Shown here: one piece after another, positions 33,581 to 40,111 of the stretch
Layout: the number at the start of each line of letters is the position of its first letter
How positions within the stretch are numbered: position 1 is the first letter of the stretch
DNA from: Lentisphaera marina
GTDB taxonomy: Bacteria > Verrucomicrobiota > Lentisphaeria > Lentisphaerales > Lentisphaeraceae
Assembly: GCF_028745505.1 (NCBI RefSeq)
Contig: NZ_JAQZZL010000001.1
Location: 2,229,818-2,293,817 of the forward strand
Length of the DNA: 64,000 nucleotides
Direction: 5' to 3'
Translations under genes and position numbers: made by a program
The notes under the pieces: model-generated
Databases searched by the model: none
Seen by the model: only the letters and a program-made list of their open reading frames with translations
What the model was told of the DNA's origin: nothing

Positions 33581-34783
33581 TTAAAGACGATCTTCATGCT
33601 TTTGAGCGAAGCTTTCCATTTTTTGCATTGTCTGGGCAGACAGTTTTTTTTCGCTCAGGTAGTTGTACGCACGTCTCGCCGTAAAGAAATCTTTCACATC
33701 CAAAAGTTTGCTCAGGTTTGTTTCGATCTTTTCAGAATAAAGATCTTTATCTTCTATGGTCCTTAATGATAAATGAACCGCATAATAGGAAACTTCCTTA
33801 AGTTTAGCCGTAAGAGATAGGAGTATTTGATCATCCAAACTTTGCTGCTGACTTAATTGGTCGATAATGAGCGCTGCATTATAATTTCCCTGCTTTGGCA
33901 AAGTATTGATAAGGCATTCAAAATAATCGTTTTGGCTTTTACTAGCTTTTTTTAAGTACGCTAAAGCAGGTTCTATTTGATCTATACTGGCCTTTGCTAA
34001 ACTTGCACTTATGGAGTCGATGTAATCCTGAGAGTAAATTTTCTCACTATCTAAGTGATTTATAATAAATTCAATTTTAGACCAATCGCCACCATCCAAA
34101 GTTTTTTGTATGTAATACGGAGTCGCTTGAGCTAGTGTTTCGGTATGCAATATGGGAACAATTTCTGTATTAGCATAAGTCCATAAAACCCAAGTCGTCC
34201 AAGCCGCATCTTTAACAACGGCATCTTTAACTGCGGCAGGTGTGGCTATAGCTTCCCCATCTACATCTTCATCACCTTCTAATGGTGCGCCAAATGATGA
34301 TAATGGATCAATAAATGTATCTACTTCCTCTTTTTTCTTTTTAGGTTTTTCAGGTTCTTTGGCTAAGTAAGCCAGTGAATGATTCTGTAAAATCGAAGTT
34401 TTATCCTTTAAAATTGTGTCAAGCCTCAAGTAATCTTCTTTGGTAAATGGATCGTGCTCAACTTTAGTTAGTGGTTTATTTTCAGGATAGGTAAGGTGTG
34501 AATAATTACCTGCATCATCCCAATACATGGTCACTTCTACAAGTTTACATTTTTCATCCAGACAAACAGAGTTTTTTAAATACAGTGAATACTGCTCAAT
34601 ATAGCCATCCTTACCTTTGTAAATATTCAGCTCATGTTGCCTTTTGGCTTCTTCGGGATACACGGGATCAATTAATTCAATCTCTTTTAATGCTAGCTTT
34701 TCAGAAGATGCACAAGATATGAGAACCTGACATAAAAATGACAGAATCAAAAAACGATAAATAGTCGACATATTTTTCATCAT
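33581..34783 (-). CDS. ApbE-linked lipoprotein with conserved CxxxC segment
   Basis: A 400-residue lipoprotein; lipobox SC in LCQVLISCASS. The N-terminal half has CLDEKCKLVEVTMYWDDAGNY, then PLTKVEHDPFTKEDYLRLDTIL, a pattern found in proteins encoded beside ApbE in Bacteroidota and PVC genomes. A Lys/Glu-rich linker and a helical repeat region follow. Its start overlaps the stop of apbE by four bases (34780-34783), so the two are coupled. Inference: a component of an extracytoplasmic flavin-dependent electron transfer system; the CxxxC cysteines could be redox-active or bind a ligand. Confidence 0.6.
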   Translation of the reverse strand: MMKNMSTIYRFLILSFLCQVLISCASSEKLALKEIELIDPVYPEEAKRQHELNIYKGKDGYIEQYSLYLKNSVCLDEKCKLVEVTMYWDDAGNYSHLTYPENKPLTKVEHDPFTKEDYLRLDTILKDKTSILQNHSLAYLAKEPEKPKKKKEEVDTFIDPLSSFGAPLEGDEDVDGEAIATPAAVKDAVVKDAAWTTWVLWTYANTEIVPILHTETLAQATPYYIQKTLDGGDWSKIEFIINHLDSEKIYSQDYIDSISASLAKASIDQIEPALAYLKKASKSQNDYFECLINTLPKQGNYNAALIIDQLSQQQSLDDQILLSLTAKLKEVSYYAVHLSLRTIEDKDLYSEKIETNLSKLLDVKDFFTARRAYNYLSEKKLSAQTMQKMESFAQKHEDRL

Positions 34784-35778
34784 GAGAAGACTTTAAACCC
34801 CTCAGTACATTCAACATTACCAGCTTTGTCCACAAAGAGTGCATCGACCTTTGGCAGGCTTTCAATAAGCTTGCGTCCCTTTTCTAACCCTAAAACAAAG
34901 ACAGCCGTAGAGAGTGCATCGGCTTCCATAGCACTTGGAGCAAGCACCGAAACATTGGCAAGTTCAGTTGGCGATACCCCCGTGCTGGGGTCAAATAAAT
35001 GGTGATGACGATAGTCGTCTGAAAACTTCATCTGATAATCACCTGAAGTCGACAAGCAGCGATCACTTAAATTAGTTTTGCATAAATATTGTGACTTACG
35101 TGTATGCTGAATAGCAATTTTCCAGGCCTCTCTATTACTTGGAGAACCCATGGCATTGAGTTCACCTGTATCAATTAATGCGTGTTTGATCCCTCTCACT
35201 TTTAGCGCCTTATGGGCCATATCTGCAGCCAGCCCCTGTGCTATTCCATTGAGTGTTATCTGAGCACCAGGCTTGTTTAAGAGGATCATATCAGGGGTAA
35301 TCTCAAGAGACTGCCATGCTACTCGCTTCTTAACTTTAGCAATTTCATTCTGACTTGGAATCGTTCCCTTAATAGAATGTTTTCTAAAGAGCTTCCACAG
35401 TGGCTGAACCGTAATATCAAAAGCTCCATCACTTAATGCCGAAGTTTCCTGTGTCCTTTTCAAGACATCAACAAACAAGGGGTGAGGATTGCGCAAAAGG
35501 CCTTCACGATTGAGCTGACATAATTGACTCTCTGGGCGATAAAGACTCATTAAGTTTTCAACGAGTTCAATCTTTGCCATTGCCTCCTCTAGGGCCTGAT
35601 GAGCTAATTTTTCATCATTGTGAAAAAGAGTAAAAGTCATTTTAGTACCGAGGCCATGAGAATGACGCACCACTTTTTTGAGTCCAGCTTTTTCAGCATG
35701 AGCTGAAAATCCAAGAAACATCAAAGATGCACCTGAACTCAAGGACATAAACTGTCTTCTATTCAATGAATTTATCAT
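34780..35778 (-). CDS. apbE: FAD:protein FMN transferase (ApbE family)
   Basis: A 332-residue protein with a Tat-like signal (NRRQFMSLSSGASLMFLGFSAHA). ApbE landmarks: GLGTKMTFTLFH, LSDGAFDITVQPLWKLF, NGIAQGLAADMA, ALIDTGELNAMG, and the C-terminal EADALSTAVFVLG segment (metal-binding Asp and Thr). The enzyme transfers FMN from FAD to a Thr/Ser of a target protein outside the cytoplasm. No target with the D-x-x-(S/T)-G-A-T motif was found nearby, so the acceptor is elsewhere or is unusual. A CGGCAGG-N13-CAAAT motif lies about 60 bases upstream. Confidence 0.9.
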   Translation of the reverse strand: MINSLNRRQFMSLSSGASLMFLGFSAHAEKAGLKKVVRHSHGLGTKMTFTLFHNDEKLAHQALEEAMAKIELVENLMSLYRPESQLCQLNREGLLRNPHPLFVDVLKRTQETSALSDGAFDITVQPLWKLFRKHSIKGTIPSQNEIAKVKKRVAWQSLEITPDMILLNKPGAQITLNGIAQGLAADMAHKALKVRGIKHALIDTGELNAMGSPSNREAWKIAIQHTRKSQYLCKTNLSDRCLSTSGDYQMKFSDDYRHHHLFDPSTGVSPTELANVSVLAPSAMEADALSTAVFVLGLEKGRKLIESLPKVDALFVDKAGNVECTEGFKVFS

Positions 35779-35815: not shown

Positions 35816-35840
35816 ATTTGTCCACAAAAAAATCCTGCCG
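35816..35840 (-). promoter_or_regulatory. CGGCAGG-N13-CAAAT motif upstream of apbE
   Basis: On the minus strand CGGCAGG (35834-35840), 13 bases, then CAAAT (35816-35820). Aligns without gaps with sites upstream of 36239 and 40112. Confidence 0.55.
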
Positions 35841-35892
35841 CCCTATTTACTAATATTTTAAAAAAAATATTAAAAATCTGTTTTACCAAAAT

Positions 35893-36119
35893 CATCGTAT
35901 AGCGATGACACATAACAGCCCCATATGTGAATGTGGGGTGGAAGCATGAAAAAATGGTCATGTGCTTTTAGGTACATCACTCTGTTCCATACCTAAAGGC
36001 ATGGGGGAAGTCAGTCATACTTGGTCTTAGGGCTGTGCCCTAAGCTATTAAGTTTTATGGTGCAACCATAATACTAGAATCATAAATTTGAGTACCCACC
36101 TATATGATTATAATCATAT
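35893..36119 (+). ncRNA. Candidate structured RNA (hairpin array), strand tentative
   Basis: In order: CATCG-N5-CGATG (35893-35907); CCCCA...GTGGGG (35919-35938); a weak CATG stem (about 35944-35964); an 11-bp stem GCTTTTAGGTA/TACCTAAAGGC with one G-T pair and a 15-base loop (35964-36000); CTTAGGGC-TGT-GCCCTAAG (36026-36044); TTATGGT-GCA-ACCATAA (36055-36071); and the perfect palindrome ATATGATTATAATCATAT (36102-36119). So many perfect stems in 230 bases is far beyond the surrounding DNA. The layout is reminiscent of HEARO/omega-RNA-type elements, which also occur without a protein gene, or of an IS200/IS605 remnant. No TnpB/IscB gene is present. Confidence 0.45.
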
Positions 36120-36136
36120 CTTTTTCAAGAAAGCAA

Positions 36137-36161
36137 CGGCAGGATTTTCTGGAGCTCAAAT
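36137..36161 (+). promoter_or_regulatory. CGGCAGG-N13-CAAAT motif upstream of the PSD1 operon
   Basis: CGGCAGG at 36137-36143, 13 bases, CAAAT at 36157-36161, about 78 bases before the ATG at 36239. CGGCAGGATTTT is a perfect inverted copy of 35829-35840. Confidence 0.55.
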
Positions 36162-36238
36162 TATTAAATATAAGACTCGACGGATGGCTAAGGCCACTCC
36201 TCTATTCAAAACATTAATTTGCGTAATCCAGGGAGTTT

Positions 36239-38620
36239 ATGAAGTATCTTATCTTACTTACTGTATTTATATCTTTGAGCAATCAGGCAAAAGACATCAA
36301 TTTCAATCGCGATATCAGGCCCATCTTATCTGACCGTTGTTTTCATTGTCACGGCCCGGATAAACACGATCGCAAGAAAAAGCTTCGATTGGATATAGCT
36401 GAGGGAGACGATGGCGCTTACCGCGAACGTAGAGGCAAATTTGGTATTGTGCCGGGAAATCTTGAGAAGAGTACTGTTTGGCAGCGTATCATCACTGATG
36501 ATGAAGACGATATTATGCCCCCTTTGGACTCTCACAAAAAAGCATTGAGCCAAGAAGAAAAAGAACTCATAAAACAGTGGATTCTAGAAGGTGCTAAATA
36601 TGAAAAGTTTTGGGCGTTTGAGAAGCCAAAACTAAAGATCCCGACACAATCTAAATTAAATTGGGGAAATTCACCATTAGATAAATATGTTTTGGAGACC
36701 CTAGAGAAAAATAATTTAAAGCCATCGGAACAAGCGACAAAAAGAACATTAATCCGCCGCTTAAGTTTTGACCTTACTGGTTTGCCACCTTCACCTGAAG
36801 AGATCCGTGCCTTCGAAAATAAGCAAAGTCCCGATGCTTATGAAATGTTGGTCGACAAACTTTTAGCTAAGCCCGCTTACGGTGAACACATGACGCGTTA
36901 CTGGCTGGATTTAGTTAGAGCTGGCGATACTAATGGCCTGCATAGAGACTTGTATCGCAATACCTATACTTATCGAGATTGGATAATCAGAGCCTTTAAT
37001 AACAATCTGCCTTACAGTGATTTCCTGAAGTATCAGTTAGCTGGTGACCTTTATAAAAAACCCACAGATGACCAACTCATTGCCTCAGGTTTTAACCGAC
37101 TGCATTTGGTGATGGCCAGAGGAACTGCACCACCAGAAGAGAGTTACACTAAAAATGTGATTGACCGAGTTACCGCCGTGAGTACAGCTTTCATGGGCCT
37201 AACTATGCAGTGTGCCAGATGTCACGATCACAAGTTTGATCCAATCACTCAAAAAGATTTTTATGCCATGTTCGCATTTTTTAATAACTTCGATGGTGAT
37301 GCAGAAACAAAAAGGGAAGTAAACGGGCTGCAAGCCCCCTTTATCATTCTTGGTAGCGATAAAGAAAAGGCCAAATTTGCTGAATTACAAAAGACCTATT
37401 TAAAAGCCAAGCCTAAGATAGAGAAACTGGAAAAAAGAGTACGTCAAGAAAAAGACAAAGCAAAGAAAAAAGTTTTACAGGCTGAATTGAATGAGCTTAA
37501 AAAAGTCCCAAAATCCTATGGAGATTACCTGGCTAAGTTTGATGGAGCTATGGTGATGAAGGGGAGGGAAAAGATTCGCTCATCGTATATGCTCAATCGA
37601 GGTGAATACGACCAGAAAGGCGAAGTAGTTGAACGCGACATTCCGGAGTTCTTTGGCTCTATCAAAAAAGATGGTGAACTTACAACACGCATGGATTTAG
37701 CCAATTGGTTTCTGGCTAAAGATAACCCCTTGACGGCACGCGTAGCCGTCAATCGCTTTTGGCAACAGTTTTTTGGTGTTGGTTTAGTGAAAACCTCTGA
37801 AGACTTTGGGGCCCAAGGGGAGCCACCAAGTCATTTGGAATTATTGGATTACTTAACAATCCAATTTGTTGAATCAGGCTGGGATATCAAGAAGTTACTT
37901 AAAACTATTGTTATGTCAGAGACCTATAGGCAAACATCCATAGCAAGTGATGAGCAATTTAAAAATGACCCTGAAAATCGCTTACTCGCTCGAAGTTCAC
38001 GCTACCGTATGGCTGCCGAAATGATTCGAGATAATATCTTGGTCAGCAGCAATTTGCTGAATTCGCAAATGTACGGCAAAAGTGTAAAACCACCTCAACC
38101 TGATGGACTATGGGCTGCCGTAAGTATGACTAATGAAAGCTACAAAGCGGATAAAGGTGATTCCATCTACCGCCGCTCCCTTTATACCTTCTGGAAAAAG
38201 ATCATGCCACCTCCACAAATGACAATTCTAAATGCCCCAAGTCGGGAATTTTGCGTTGCTCGCAGAGAACGTACAAACACCCCACTCCAGGCTTTACTTC
38301 TTCTTAATGAACCTGAGTACTTAAAAGCTGCGACAAATTTAGCTACCATCATTGTTTCGGATAAGACCACAAGTGATGAAGAGAAAATCAGAGCCGCCTA
38401 TGAACGCGTCACCTGTAAACTCGCGGATCGGCATGAAGTAAGCTTACTTGTAGAGCTCTTGGGCAAAATGAGAAAGCGTTATACCGCTGATAAAAAACTT
38501 GCTCATCAAATGCTGGGTGAAGTAAATTTACTTCAGAGTCAAAACAAGATTGAGCTGGCTTCATGGACCATGTTGATCAACACACTCTATAACTTAGACA
38601 TCACCAAAAACAGGGAGTAA
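36239..38620 (+). CDS. Planctomycete-type cytochrome protein (PSCyt1/DUF1549/DUF1553)
   Basis: A 793-residue exported protein. Signal peptide 1-16; RDIRPILSDRCFHCHGPD with haem motif CFHCH (PSCyt1); then KLRLDIAEG and IMPP; DUF1549 (LIRRLSFDLTGLPPSPEEIRAF) with a second CARCH motif (MQCARCHDHKFDP); a coiled-coil-like charged stretch; DUF1553 (LTARVAVNRFWQQFFGVGLVKT) to the end. Function unknown, but the paired DUF1501 gene downstream is the constant partner. AGGGAG before the ATG is a good RBS. The stop at 38620 is three bases from the next start, so the two genes form an operon. Confidence 0.93.
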   Translation: MKYLILLTVFISLSNQAKDINFNRDIRPILSDRCFHCHGPDKHDRKKKLRLDIAEGDDGAYRERRGKFGIVPGNLEKSTVWQRIITDDEDDIMPPLDSHKKALSQEEKELIKQWILEGAKYEKFWAFEKPKLKIPTQSKLNWGNSPLDKYVLETLEKNNLKPSEQATKRTLIRRLSFDLTGLPPSPEEIRAFENKQSPDAYEMLVDKLLAKPAYGEHMTRYWLDLVRAGDTNGLHRDLYRNTYTYRDWIIRAFNNNLPYSDFLKYQLAGDLYKKPTDDQLIASGFNRLHLVMARGTAPPEESYTKNVIDRVTAVSTAFMGLTMQCARCHDHKFDPITQKDFYAMFAFFNNFDGDAETKREVNGLQAPFIILGSDKEKAKFAELQKTYLKAKPKIEKLEKRVRQEKDKAKKKVLQAELNELKKVPKSYGDYLAKFDGAMVMKGREKIRSSYMLNRGEYDQKGEVVERDIPEFFGSIKKDGELTTRMDLANWFLAKDNPLTARVAVNRFWQQFFGVGLVKTSEDFGAQGEPPSHLELLDYLTIQFVESGWDIKKLLKTIVMSETYRQTSIASDEQFKNDPENRLLARSSRYRMAAEMIRDNILVSSNLLNSQMYGKSVKPPQPDGLWAAVSMTNESYKADKGDSIYRRSLYTFWKKIMPPPQMTILNAPSREFCVARRERTNTPLQALLLLNEPEYLKAATNLATIIVSDKTTSDEEKIRAAYERVTCKLADRHEVSLLVELLGKMRKRYTADKKLAHQMLGEVNLLQSQNKIELASWTMLINTLYNLDITKNRE

Positions 38621-38623
38621 AAT

Positions 38624-40030
38624 ATGTCAGGATTAAATCTATCGCGTCGCTCCTTTCTCAGTACAGTAGGCATGGGCACAATCGGAGCCATGTTACCGCA
38701 AAATGTCTTCGCAGCTAGTCAGGGACTACACCATAAACCTAAAGCCAAGCGTCTCATTATGCTTTTTATGGCAGGTGGCCAAAGCCAACTGGATCTCTTT
38801 GATCATAAACCTGGTTTGCAGAAACTTGCCGGTCAAGAAATGCCTCCCTCTATATTAGGCAATCAACGTTTCACAGCGATGACTCAAGATCAAAAAAAGA
38901 TTGTCACCCCCTCCAAATATAACTTTAAGCGCTATGGCTCAAATGGCATCCTCATGGGCGAAAACTTACCCCACCTGGGATCGGTCATGGACGATCTTTG
39001 TCTGGTCAAATCTCTCTATACCGAATCCATCAATCACGACCCGGGAAAAACGCTGTTCTGTACTGGCCAGGAACTACCGGGAAATCCGAGCCTGGGATCC
39101 TGGTTGAGCTATGGTCTTGGCACTATGAATAAAGATTTGCCGGATTTTATTGTTCTCCCATCTGCTTTTTGGAGTGGAAAAGCCAATGTCCAGGCCCTCT
39201 TCTCCCGCCTTTGGGGTAGCGGATGCCTGCCCTCCAAGCACCAGGGCACTTCTTTTCAAAGCAAAGGAGACCCAGTCTTATTCCTTTCAAACCCAAATGG
39301 AGTGAGCCCTCAAGTTAGAAGGGAAATGCTCGACACCCTTGGTCAGCTCAATCAAAAACATTTTAATGAATTGCGCGACCCAGAAATTCAGACCACTATG
39401 GCACAACAAGAAATGGCTTACCGCATGCAAAGTTCCATTCCTGAGCTAACTGATATTACTAAAGAATCAAAAGCTAATTTAGACCTTTATGGCCCTGAAG
39501 TCATGAAGCAAGGTTCTTATGCGCGCAACTGTCTACTAGCTCGTCGAATGGCTGAACGTGACGTTCGTTGTATTCAACTTTTTCATCGTGGTTGGGATCA
39601 TCATGGGGACTTGCCAAAATACCTACCTGGCCAATGCCGTGACGTTGATCAGCCAACAGCAGGTTTAATCAAGGATCTCAAGCAACGTGGTCTATTAGAA
39701 GATACTTTAGTTGTCATGGTTGGTGAGTTCGGTCGTACTTGCTATGGTCAGGGCAAATACAATAAAAATGACTACGGTCGAGATCATCATCCACGATGCT
39801 TCTCGGCACTCCTCGCTGGCGGTGGCATACAAGGTGGCATCGAATATGGTCAAACAGATGAATTTTCATACAATATTGTGGATAAACCCGTTCATGTCCG
39901 CGATCTACATGCCACCCTGCTTTGGCAGCTCGGCTTAGATCACAATCAGCTGAGTTATCCATTCCAGGGACTAAATATTAAACTCACAGGTGTCAATCCC
40001 GCTCATCTTGTTCAGGGGATTCTTTCCTAA
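38624..40030 (+). CDS. DUF1501 family protein, Tat-exported
   Basis: A 468-residue protein with a twin-arginine signal (LSRRSFLSTVGMGTIGAM) and the DUF1501 body: KRLIMLFMAGGQSQLDLFDHKP, MGENLPHLGSVMDDLCLVKSL, HDPGKTLFCTGQ, GWDHHGDLPKY and VMVGEFGRTCYGQGK, YGRDHHP. The family belongs to the alkaline-phosphatase/sulfatase-like superfold. AGGGAG in the end of the upstream gene serves as RBS. Together with the PSCyt1 protein it is expected in the periplasm; its chemistry is not known. Confidence 0.93.
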   Translation: MSGLNLSRRSFLSTVGMGTIGAMLPQNVFAASQGLHHKPKAKRLIMLFMAGGQSQLDLFDHKPGLQKLAGQEMPPSILGNQRFTAMTQDQKKIVTPSKYNFKRYGSNGILMGENLPHLGSVMDDLCLVKSLYTESINHDPGKTLFCTGQELPGNPSLGSWLSYGLGTMNKDLPDFIVLPSAFWSGKANVQALFSRLWGSGCLPSKHQGTSFQSKGDPVLFLSNPNGVSPQVRREMLDTLGQLNQKHFNELRDPEIQTTMAQQEMAYRMQSSIPELTDITKESKANLDLYGPEVMKQGSYARNCLLARRMAERDVRCIQLFHRGWDHHGDLPKYLPGQCRDVDQPTAGLIKDLKQRGLLEDTLVVMVGEFGRTCYGQGKYNKNDYGRDHHPRCFSALLAGGGIQGGIEYGQTDEFSYNIVDKPVHVRDLHATLLWQLGLDHNQLSYPFQGLNIKLTGVNPAHLVQGILS

Positions 40031-40052
40031 CAATAAAATTTATAAAAAAAAC

Positions 40053-40077
40053 GGCAGGTTTTTCTTTCACTCAAATT
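40053..40077 (+). promoter_or_regulatory. CGGCAGG-N13-CAAAT motif upstream of the FAD oxidoreductase operon
   Basis: CGGCAGG at 40053-40059, 13 bases, CAAAT at 40073-40077, 35 bases before the ATG at 40112. Both this and the site at 36137 begin AACGGCAGG and end CAAATTA. Confidence 0.55.
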
Positions 40078-40111
40078 AGATGATATACAAATATCAAATC
40101 AGGTCATATTA

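Follow-up and report, generated by a model that had tools for sequence, protein, structure and literature searches.

HuH-Y1 transposases are described as enzymes that cut and join single-stranded DNA beside hairpins (PMC6006769). Table 1 of their classification (Quentin 2018, PMC6006769) gives TnpAY1 subclass 1.2 the motifs DH[IV]H, WQ and YIKNQKEHH, a length of about 148 residues and the entry 'REP: no', and the subclass is placed there mostly in Cyanobacteria and Bacteroidetes (PMC6006769). TnpAY1 class 3, with the motifs Y----Q, NHVH and W[TA] and 178 residues, is listed for Planctomycetes and Acidobacteria in the same article and is described as standing between IS and REPtron, with atypical flanking structures and a high copy number in an acidobacterium (PMC6006769). 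The Acido-Lenti-1 family (RF01687) was built as an RNA in Rfam and is filed in its entry as 'Gene; sRNA' (Weinberg 2010). It has been reported as a non-coding RNA in other genomes and has been annotated in genomes with regulatory guesses (PMC13298647). In the literature, taken largely as abstracts and without subscription papers, no link between Acido-Lenti-1 and TnpAY1 subclass 1.2 was found.

The locus described here lies in a window of 64 kb, the whole stretch of DNA that was analysed. With a probability of about 0.85 we regard positions 35891-36072 of the window as one worn copy of a REPIN-like miniature DNA element that would be mobile, and its best reading is a gene-less derivative of an element made of TnpA plus hairpins.

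Anatomy of the element and of its locus

The preliminary description had reported an array of hairpins in this region, three of them perfect and one of 11 bp with a G-T pair, together with an 18-nt palindrome, and a check of the sequence found all of them in place. The hairpins are arranged in two convergent units (Table 1). In unit A, H1 has 5 perfect bp and a 5-nt loop, with 1 further bp with a G-T pair, and H2 has 8 bp including one G-T pair and a loop of 4 nt. In unit B, H2 and H1 have 8 and 7 perfect bp, respectively, each with a loop of 3 nt. In the general unit of 48 nt, H1 (stem of 5-6 bp, loop of 3 nt) is separated by about 8 nt from a [T]AG foot, which is followed by H2 (stem of 8 bp, loop of 3-4 nt); a third hairpin, H3, lies inward of H2. 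H3 and H3' of the window pair together to give the 11-bp stem with its one G-T pair (35964-35974 with 35990-36000 in the RNA fold). By eye, inner hairpins were also seen in other REPINs and at the ends of transposase genes.

Table 1. Positions of the hairpin units and neighbouring features in the window
Feature	Position	Strand	Remarks
Putative REPIN-like element, two convergent double-hairpin units	35891-36072	.	starts 135 nt apart
Unit A	35891-35938	+	H1 35893-35907, linker, foot CAG 35916-35918, H2 35919-35938
Unit B	36026-36072	-	H2 36026-36044, foot 36045-36047 (CTA on + strand), linker, H1 36055-36071
Inner hairpin H3 of unit A (GTGCTTTTAGGTAC)	35962-35975	+	from sequence; counterpart in L002
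Inner hairpin H3' of unit B (CATACCTAAAGGCATG)	35988-36003	-	from sequence
18-nt perfect palindrome ATATGATTATAATCATAT	36102-36119	.	judged outside element
ApbE-family gene	34780-35778	-	PF02424, 238 bits
PSCyt1-PSCyt2-PSD1 gene	36239-38620	+	PF07587, PF07583, PF07635

Two covariance models were used for the search of such units. R1, trained on the window's own genome only, matched unit A with 48.7 bits (E 7.5e-12; unit A is a training member) and unit B, which is outside the training set, with 25.8 bits (E 1.6e-5). R2, built from other genomes as described below, matched them with 30.7 bits (E 2.2e-6) and 24.7 bits (E 8.9e-5). In the whole window the two units were the sole matches of R1 and likewise of R2. 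A partial copy of the element with 71% DNA identity over 180 nt was found elsewhere in the genome at G000:C1:675482-675676 (L002). The palindrome was judged foreign to the element because it lies outside the matches of R1 and R2 and outside the stretch aligned with L002, so that of the array first delimited the hairpins were kept and the palindrome was not. Its core, GATTATAATC, was found again near L078, a locus of the same genome.

The hairpins lie between two divergent genes, as had been described, and the single listed ORF of at least 60 amino acids that reaches into the region is an 81-residue frame with a TTG start at 36088, which overlaps the PSD1 gene. No ORF of at least 60 amino acids was found between units A and B, and a transposase gene is therefore absent from the inside of the element. 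When 227-nt stretches were sampled each 20 nt through the window, three or more perfect stems of at least 7 bp occurred only in stretches overlapping the hairpins; elsewhere the maximum was two. The claim that perfect stems are denser here than anywhere else in the window is borne out by this count. The region 35880-36130 also folded better than dinucleotide shuffles, with z = -3.64 for RNA of the + strand (1/200 shuffles equally good), z = -4.06 for single-stranded DNA of the + strand (0/200) and z = -2.92 for RNA of the - strand (0/200). The randomised control proposed with the preliminary description thus does not speak against a structured element.

The corresponding place was compared in congeners, where the compared loci of G001, G002 and G005 do not include the PSD1 gene itself. 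In G001, the ApbE orthologue (70% identical) is followed by an intergenic region that could be aligned to both window flanks with scores of 40 and 38, against shuffle maxima of 35 and 30 (0/300 shuffles as high). The element itself was not alignable there (236/300 shuffles as good), and G001 appears to have an empty site. In G002 the right flank aligned (3/300 shuffles as good) and the element did not. In G001 and G002 the next gene after ApbE encodes an FAD oxidoreductase and not PSD1, so that the evidence for the empty site is good towards ApbE, whereas at the opposite end it depends on a promoter-like stretch.

Several side observations were made at this locus. The intergenic region of G002 (L117 2561-2800) is filled by a different repeat of the CTCTGCGTCTCTGCGTCTCCGCG type with an inverted partner. 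The gene pair of PSD1 and DUF1501 (window 36239-40030) is missing at the same place in two congeners (L115, L117), where the FAD-oxidoreductase gene directly follows ApbE. A motif of CGGCAGG, about 12 nt and TCAAATTA occurs at 36137-36163 (+) and 40052-40080 (+), ahead of the PSD1 and FAD-oxidoreductase genes, and also ahead of genes in relatives (L115, L116, L117); the CGGCAGG part alone, at 35834-35840 (-), faces the ApbE gene. The motif resembles a promoter common to these genes and may depend on an ECF sigma factor.

A cis-acting leader, attenuator or bidirectional terminator of the ApbE and PSD1 genes, such as the riboswitch-like PSD1 leader named as the alternative in the preliminary description, would suit the position between two divergent genes, and REP-type hairpins are reported to affect transcripts (PMC6006769). 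However, the likely promoter motifs of both genes (35834-35840 and 36137-36163) lie outside the element, which would place it upstream of both transcripts. In addition, no riboswitch or leader of Rfam matched in the window, and the element is not conserved at the orthologous place in G001, as a leader should be, while G002 has a different repeat there. Among the explanations weighed here we give this one the least credit.

Copies in the genome and covariation of the units

The genome to which the window belongs (G000, 5.3 Mb, 3 contigs) contains at least 104 units at E<=0.01 with R1, for which 150 of the 769 first-look candidates were scored and unit B of the window is not among the units listed. 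RF01687 gave at least 68 matches at E<=10 in this genome and at least 12 over the gathering threshold (150 of 711 candidates scored). These copy numbers are lower bounds, because only part of the first-look candidates was scored. The PSCyt, PSD1 and DUF1501 genes, together with the range given for the Rfam family, suggest that the genome is that of a PVC bacterium, probably of the Lentisphaerota. The search for further copies, suggested together with the preliminary description, was therefore positive, and the label 'orphan' given to the array does not hold.

Among the units listed, the copies form 52 clusters, 20 of which hold two units. In 16 of these 20 clusters the units are convergent with starts 134-191 nt apart, and in 11 of the 16 the distance is 139-145 nt. 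The spacing of 135 nt in the window fits this recurrent distance, and the window pair resembles in this respect the inverted pairs of REPINs. Of 30 units examined, none had most of its length within an ORF of 120 or more amino acids, whereas 67% of positions drawn at random from their loci fell within such an ORF. The copies are thus dispersed and mainly intergenic, as REPINs are.

The covariation of the two hairpins was analysed in an ungapped alignment of 21 rows, all paralogues of one genome: unit A and 20 of 30 own-genome loci with identical geometry. Left out were the near-duplicates L028 and L029, L039 (a duplicate of L038), seven loci whose H2 loop has 3 nt or whose length differs (L032, L034, L037, L038, L042, L045 and L049), unit B and both units of L002. 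In this alignment 92.2% of the cells were paired, and the covariation score was 0.855 compared with 0.261 in shuffles, with none of 500 shuffles as high. Changes on both sides were found in 13 of the 14 stem pairs (8/500 shuffles as high), and further pair types showed no excess over shuffles (208/500 as high). Structures slid along the alignment were 27-43% paired, and none reached the true covariation score. Covariation, whose absence had been named as a refuting result, is thus present in the family. The foot was TAG in 17 of the 21 rows, CAG in 3 and TAT in 1. In the cross-phylum rows that have a letter at these positions, the A was found in 70/70 and the G in 67/70.

At the gathering threshold no Rfam family matched in the window. 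A relaxed scan matched unit A (35893-35938) to Acido-Lenti-1 on the opposite (-) strand with 28.2 bits, below the gathering threshold of 37, and gave besides this two chance-level eukaryotic families, snR34 and mir-3121. Unit A aligns over the full length of RF01687 and belongs to the covarying rows, so that it has the two-hairpin structure of the family. With 85 candidates scored per genome, RF01687 matches at E<=1e-4 were found in 30 of 59 genomes, the own genome included, at listed numbers from 1 to 84, which are lower bounds, and in none of 14 control genomes. One genome, G011 (L162, L147), has at least 69 matches, many of them longer (about 65 nt), and represents a diverged subfamily; near L162 its H2 contains a nested hairpin.

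The HEARO or omega-RNA reading of the preliminary description found no support, as no such family of Rfam matched in the window at either the gathering or the relaxed threshold. A search of the genome for TnpB-type genes with PF07282 gave no match with controls that were matched, and a search for IscB-type genes with PF14239 also gave none, but there the controls were likewise unmatched. Group II introns that target the units were considered and dropped as a general explanation, since by eye 1 of 7 introns was found at such a hairpin. At L078 (G000:C1:701097-701173) a group II intron ends right before a TAG-H2-like hairpin and is seemingly inserted within a unit of the family.

Y1 transposases beside the units

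Seven Y1_Tnp matches in the own genome correspond to six genes. Two of these are of the Y---Q--HH type; one is intact, and the other is interrupted by an in-frame stop close to its beginning. The intact gene encodes P0001, a Y1 transposase that has units on both sides of its gene (L051), both of which face one way (-) and are not mirrored. P0001 matched the NCBIfam model of the IS200/IS605 transposase with 65.6 bits (cut-off 55), the RAYT model with 36.7 bits, below the cut-off of 80, and ISHp608 TnpA with E 3.5e-5. The units beside the two Y---Q--HH genes belong to sequence subfamilies different from that of the window copy, and no gene flanked by the window's own subfamily was found in this genome. 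A cognate Y1 gene flanked by the same units, as in REPIN systems, is therefore seen for the family and, in this genome, not for the subfamily of the window.

The own genome and its relatives gave 56 Y1 loci, of which L166 duplicates L163 and six (L054, L055, L134, L143, L153, L174) are without a classable frame; L174 has a unit match of 25.8 bits. The remaining 49 distinct loci comprise 35 of the Y---Q--HH type, 9 of the canonical IS200 type and 5 of the RAYT type. Units were found at 29 of the 35 Y---Q--HH loci, but at 0/9 IS200-type and 0/5 RAYT-type loci (Fisher p 5.7e-8). Of the 29 loci, 17 were counted by an R1 match that reached 20 bits and 12 more by an R2 match at E<=0.01; the 6 loci without a unit include L150 and L157, whose weaker matches were counted as misses, and L152, where no such motif was recognised, was kept among the 35. 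The fraction leans upward, because three loci of the 20 added regions (L164, L165 and L166) had been chosen after units near the gene were noticed, while the scan of GTDB genomes described below is independent of this choice. Loci of one genome were counted one by one, so the p-values given here are too small. The canonical RAYT P0002 (97.8 bits for NF047646) was rejected as partner of the units, since none of the 5 class-2-type loci carries one.

As a control, R1 was applied to 38 loci not picked for Y1 genes, of which 19 are the relatives' ApbE loci. Apart from L114, the window's own locus, which was excluded from the count, two weak matches were obtained (16.1 and 12.5 bits). R2 gave two matches in the 19 ApbE loci, 25.6 bits in L131 and 18.2 bits in L126, both from unit-rich genomes.

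H53, H55, Y113 and Q117 were invariant in 18 aligned transposases, and WQ was not, being WA in L148 and L159. In a quick tree the Y---Q--HH group stands apart from the 1.1-type and class 2 proteins (SH-aLRT 99). By their motifs (Y---Q--HH, WQ), their length of about 148 residues and this tree, these transposases appear to fall into subclass 1.2. One transposase region of the own genome (L059 1763-2413) is about 90% identical over 659 positions to that of L168 (1506-2160) in G002, while the ApbE proteins of the two genomes have 66% identical residues only, which suggests a recent gene transfer.

The association was then followed into other phyla. GTDB genomes were scanned with a profile of the closer transposase set and two conserved peptide patterns, and the best 80 of 582 relatives were taken. 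By their record titles, many of which are metagenome bins whose labels may err, the 80 loci belong to Bacteroidota, Planctomycetota, Acidobacteria, Verrucomicrobia, Delta- and Gammaproteobacteria and others. Among these best 80 the Y---Q--HH motif was present in 79. Of the 102 rows obtained with R1, the 68 strongest (E up to about 0.005) were counted: 56 lay no more than 300 nt from the gene and 12 at larger distances, a 24-fold enrichment (p 3e-33). The signal near the gene came from 29 of the 80 loci, and the far DNA was five times longer than the near DNA.

The 71 rows of R2 are matches from named GTDB loci, and none of them comes from the window's genome. Since the rows were picked with R1, which holds unit A, the independence of R2 extends to the sequences but not to their selection; 5 of the 71 rows (L221) come from a locus whose transposase DNA is the same as that of L142 of a same-class relative. 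In the 48 loci outside its training, R2 gave 83 matches at up to 300 nt from the gene and 15 beyond that distance (29-fold, p 2e-50), counted on 98 rows at E<=0.01 with single-hairpin partial matches included. A unit or part of one was found within 300 nt of the gene in 34 of these 48 loci, and R2 detected none in the other 14. The nearest full unit, with matches shorter than 34 nt excluded, was on the + strand upstream in 23 of 26 cases and on the - strand downstream in 21 of 26. Inspected by eye, eight chosen loci have the H1-H2-H3 series at the gene ends, with a mirrored order in the seven of which both ends were shown.

In 16 of the 80 loci RF01687 itself matched at or above its gathering score, with 33 matches in total. 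They make up 33 of the 36 matches of all Rfam families in the 80 loci, and a few of them, for example the three in L219, are farther than 300 nt from the gene. Of 24 genomes reached via the 80 loci (150 candidates scored per genome; L202 left out), 15 had at least one R1 unit at E<=0.001 and nine had no match at this threshold. One of the nine is Bacteroides xylanisolvens, whose transposase gene is nonetheless accompanied by a match on either side, of 24.2 and 25.6 bits. In G066, the genome of L201 labelled Planctomycetaceae, there are eight convergent pairs with a start-to-start distance of 140-143 nt, which nearly equals the spacing in the window's genome.

A decayed IS200/IS605 insertion sequence that lost its transposase gene at this very site could be suspected from the resemblance of the ends to those of gene-bearing elements and from the IS200-type transposase in the genome. 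However, the pair spacing recurs at many sites of the genome and in the eight pairs of G066, and such a recurrence points to a multiplying gene-less unit rather than to repeated independent decay. Moreover, none of the nine canonical IS200-type loci carries such units. Decay at this site is very improbable. The term 'IS200/IS605 relic' in the preliminary description came close, because the hairpin family flanks IS200-like Y1 transposase genes; its decayed insertion sequence is better replaced by a gene-less REPIN-like derivative.

It is also improbable that the units are a structured small RNA with many paralogues that acts in trans and for which the link to the transposase is hitch-hiking. 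The covariation is RNA-like, the Rfam entry was built as an RNA (Weinberg 2010), and the family is on record as a non-coding RNA in other genomes. Covariation is, however, expected too for hairpin DNA that is recognised by HuH enzymes. Both strands folded better than shuffles, the units are mainly inverted pairs at a recurrent spacing, and they lie at both ends of one kind of transposase in several phyla, mostly mirrored.

The REPIN-like reading is illustrated by the fuller versions of the element, which have the arrangement H1-H2-H3 - tnpA - H3'-H2'-H1' with a Y---Q--HH Y1 gene (HuH-tyrosine, IS200-like) between H3 and H3'. A REPIN would be this arrangement minus the gene, and would have originated by gene loss. 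The transposase would bind the hairpins in single-stranded DNA, for example in the lagging-strand template, cut near the foot and join the ends. The gene-less copies would be moved in trans and settle in intergenic DNA. From the repeated unit with its covariation, pair geometry and intergenic placement, the transposase association in several phyla and the apparent empty site, we infer such binding, cleavage and transposition of the hairpins by the Y---Q--HH transposase.

We think it likely that Acido-Lenti-1, rather than being an RNA gene family, is the DNA element recognised by a second REP system. In this system, HuH transposases of subclass 1.2 with H1-H2-H3 triplets at both ends would spawn gene-less pairs, with about 140 nt between the unit starts and recurrent across phyla, whose ends would have been fused by the loss of tnpA between H3 and H3'. 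If the REPIN-like reading is true, the label 'sRNA' in Rfam misinterprets what is a DNA element, although transcription of the hairpins may still occur.

Comparison with known systems

The copy in the window alone is ordinary repeat DNA. The finding lies in the link of an Rfam 'sRNA' with a transposase group that is listed as REP-less. The presence of Acido-Lenti-1 beside one overlooked transposase class in several phyla suggests roles for both. If this is true, an 'sRNA' without known function becomes a transposition signal, and a transposase group reported without IS ends and REPs gains its substrate. A direct test is feasible with one small protein and one 48-nt single strand, and the system offers a non-RAYT case for asking how gene-less repeats persist. 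The feature picked out in the preliminary description is real, and the guess of IS200/IS605 hit its neighbourhood but not its nature.

Like RF01687, the element has the two hairpins of Acido-Lenti-1, read on the opposite strand. It differs in that the family is filed as an sRNA and the window copy scores below the gathering threshold. With IS200/IS605 elements (IS608) it shares the HuH-Y1 transposase and the subterminal hairpins; in contrast to them, the genome is without a TnpB-type match and has two Y---Q--HH genes for at least 104 units.

The REPIN/RAYT systems (TnpAREP, class 2 TnpAY1) are described with short intergenic hairpin units, often in inverted pairs, that are dispersed and flank a Y1 gene (Bertels and Rainey 2011, PMC3116915; PMC6006769), and the units here are alike in all of this. 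The unit here, however, is a double hairpin with an inner hairpin, its foot is [T]AG and not GT[AG]G, and the transposase motif is Y---Q--HH and not Y---NP, as given for REPIN/RAYT (PMC6006769). Neither the GT[AG]G foot 5' of the hairpin nor the Y---NP transposase of class 2 was found among the units and their transposases here. The TIRYTs (Di Nocera 2013, PMC3733652) are similar as Y1 genes flanked by inverted repeats, with one group in Acidobacteria; 20 of the 26 TIRYTs are placed in subclass 2.1 (class 2, Y---NP) by Quentin 2018 (PMC6006769).

TnpAY1 class 3 is similar, as far as its structures can be compared by description, in its atypical flanking structures and its occurrence in Planctomycetes and Acidobacteria. 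Class 3 proteins were not recognised among the transposases examined here, and a share of Acido-Lenti-1 could belong to this class. The closest match is with subclass 1.2: P0001 has 147 residues compared with about 148, the WQ motif and YIKNQQEHH compared with YIKNQKEHH. Unlike the entries in the published table, P0001 has EHIH instead of DH[IV]H, and units flank its gene despite 'REP: no'. The distribution is also wider than listed there and includes records named Planctomycetota, Acidobacteria, Verrucomicrobia and Proteobacteria.
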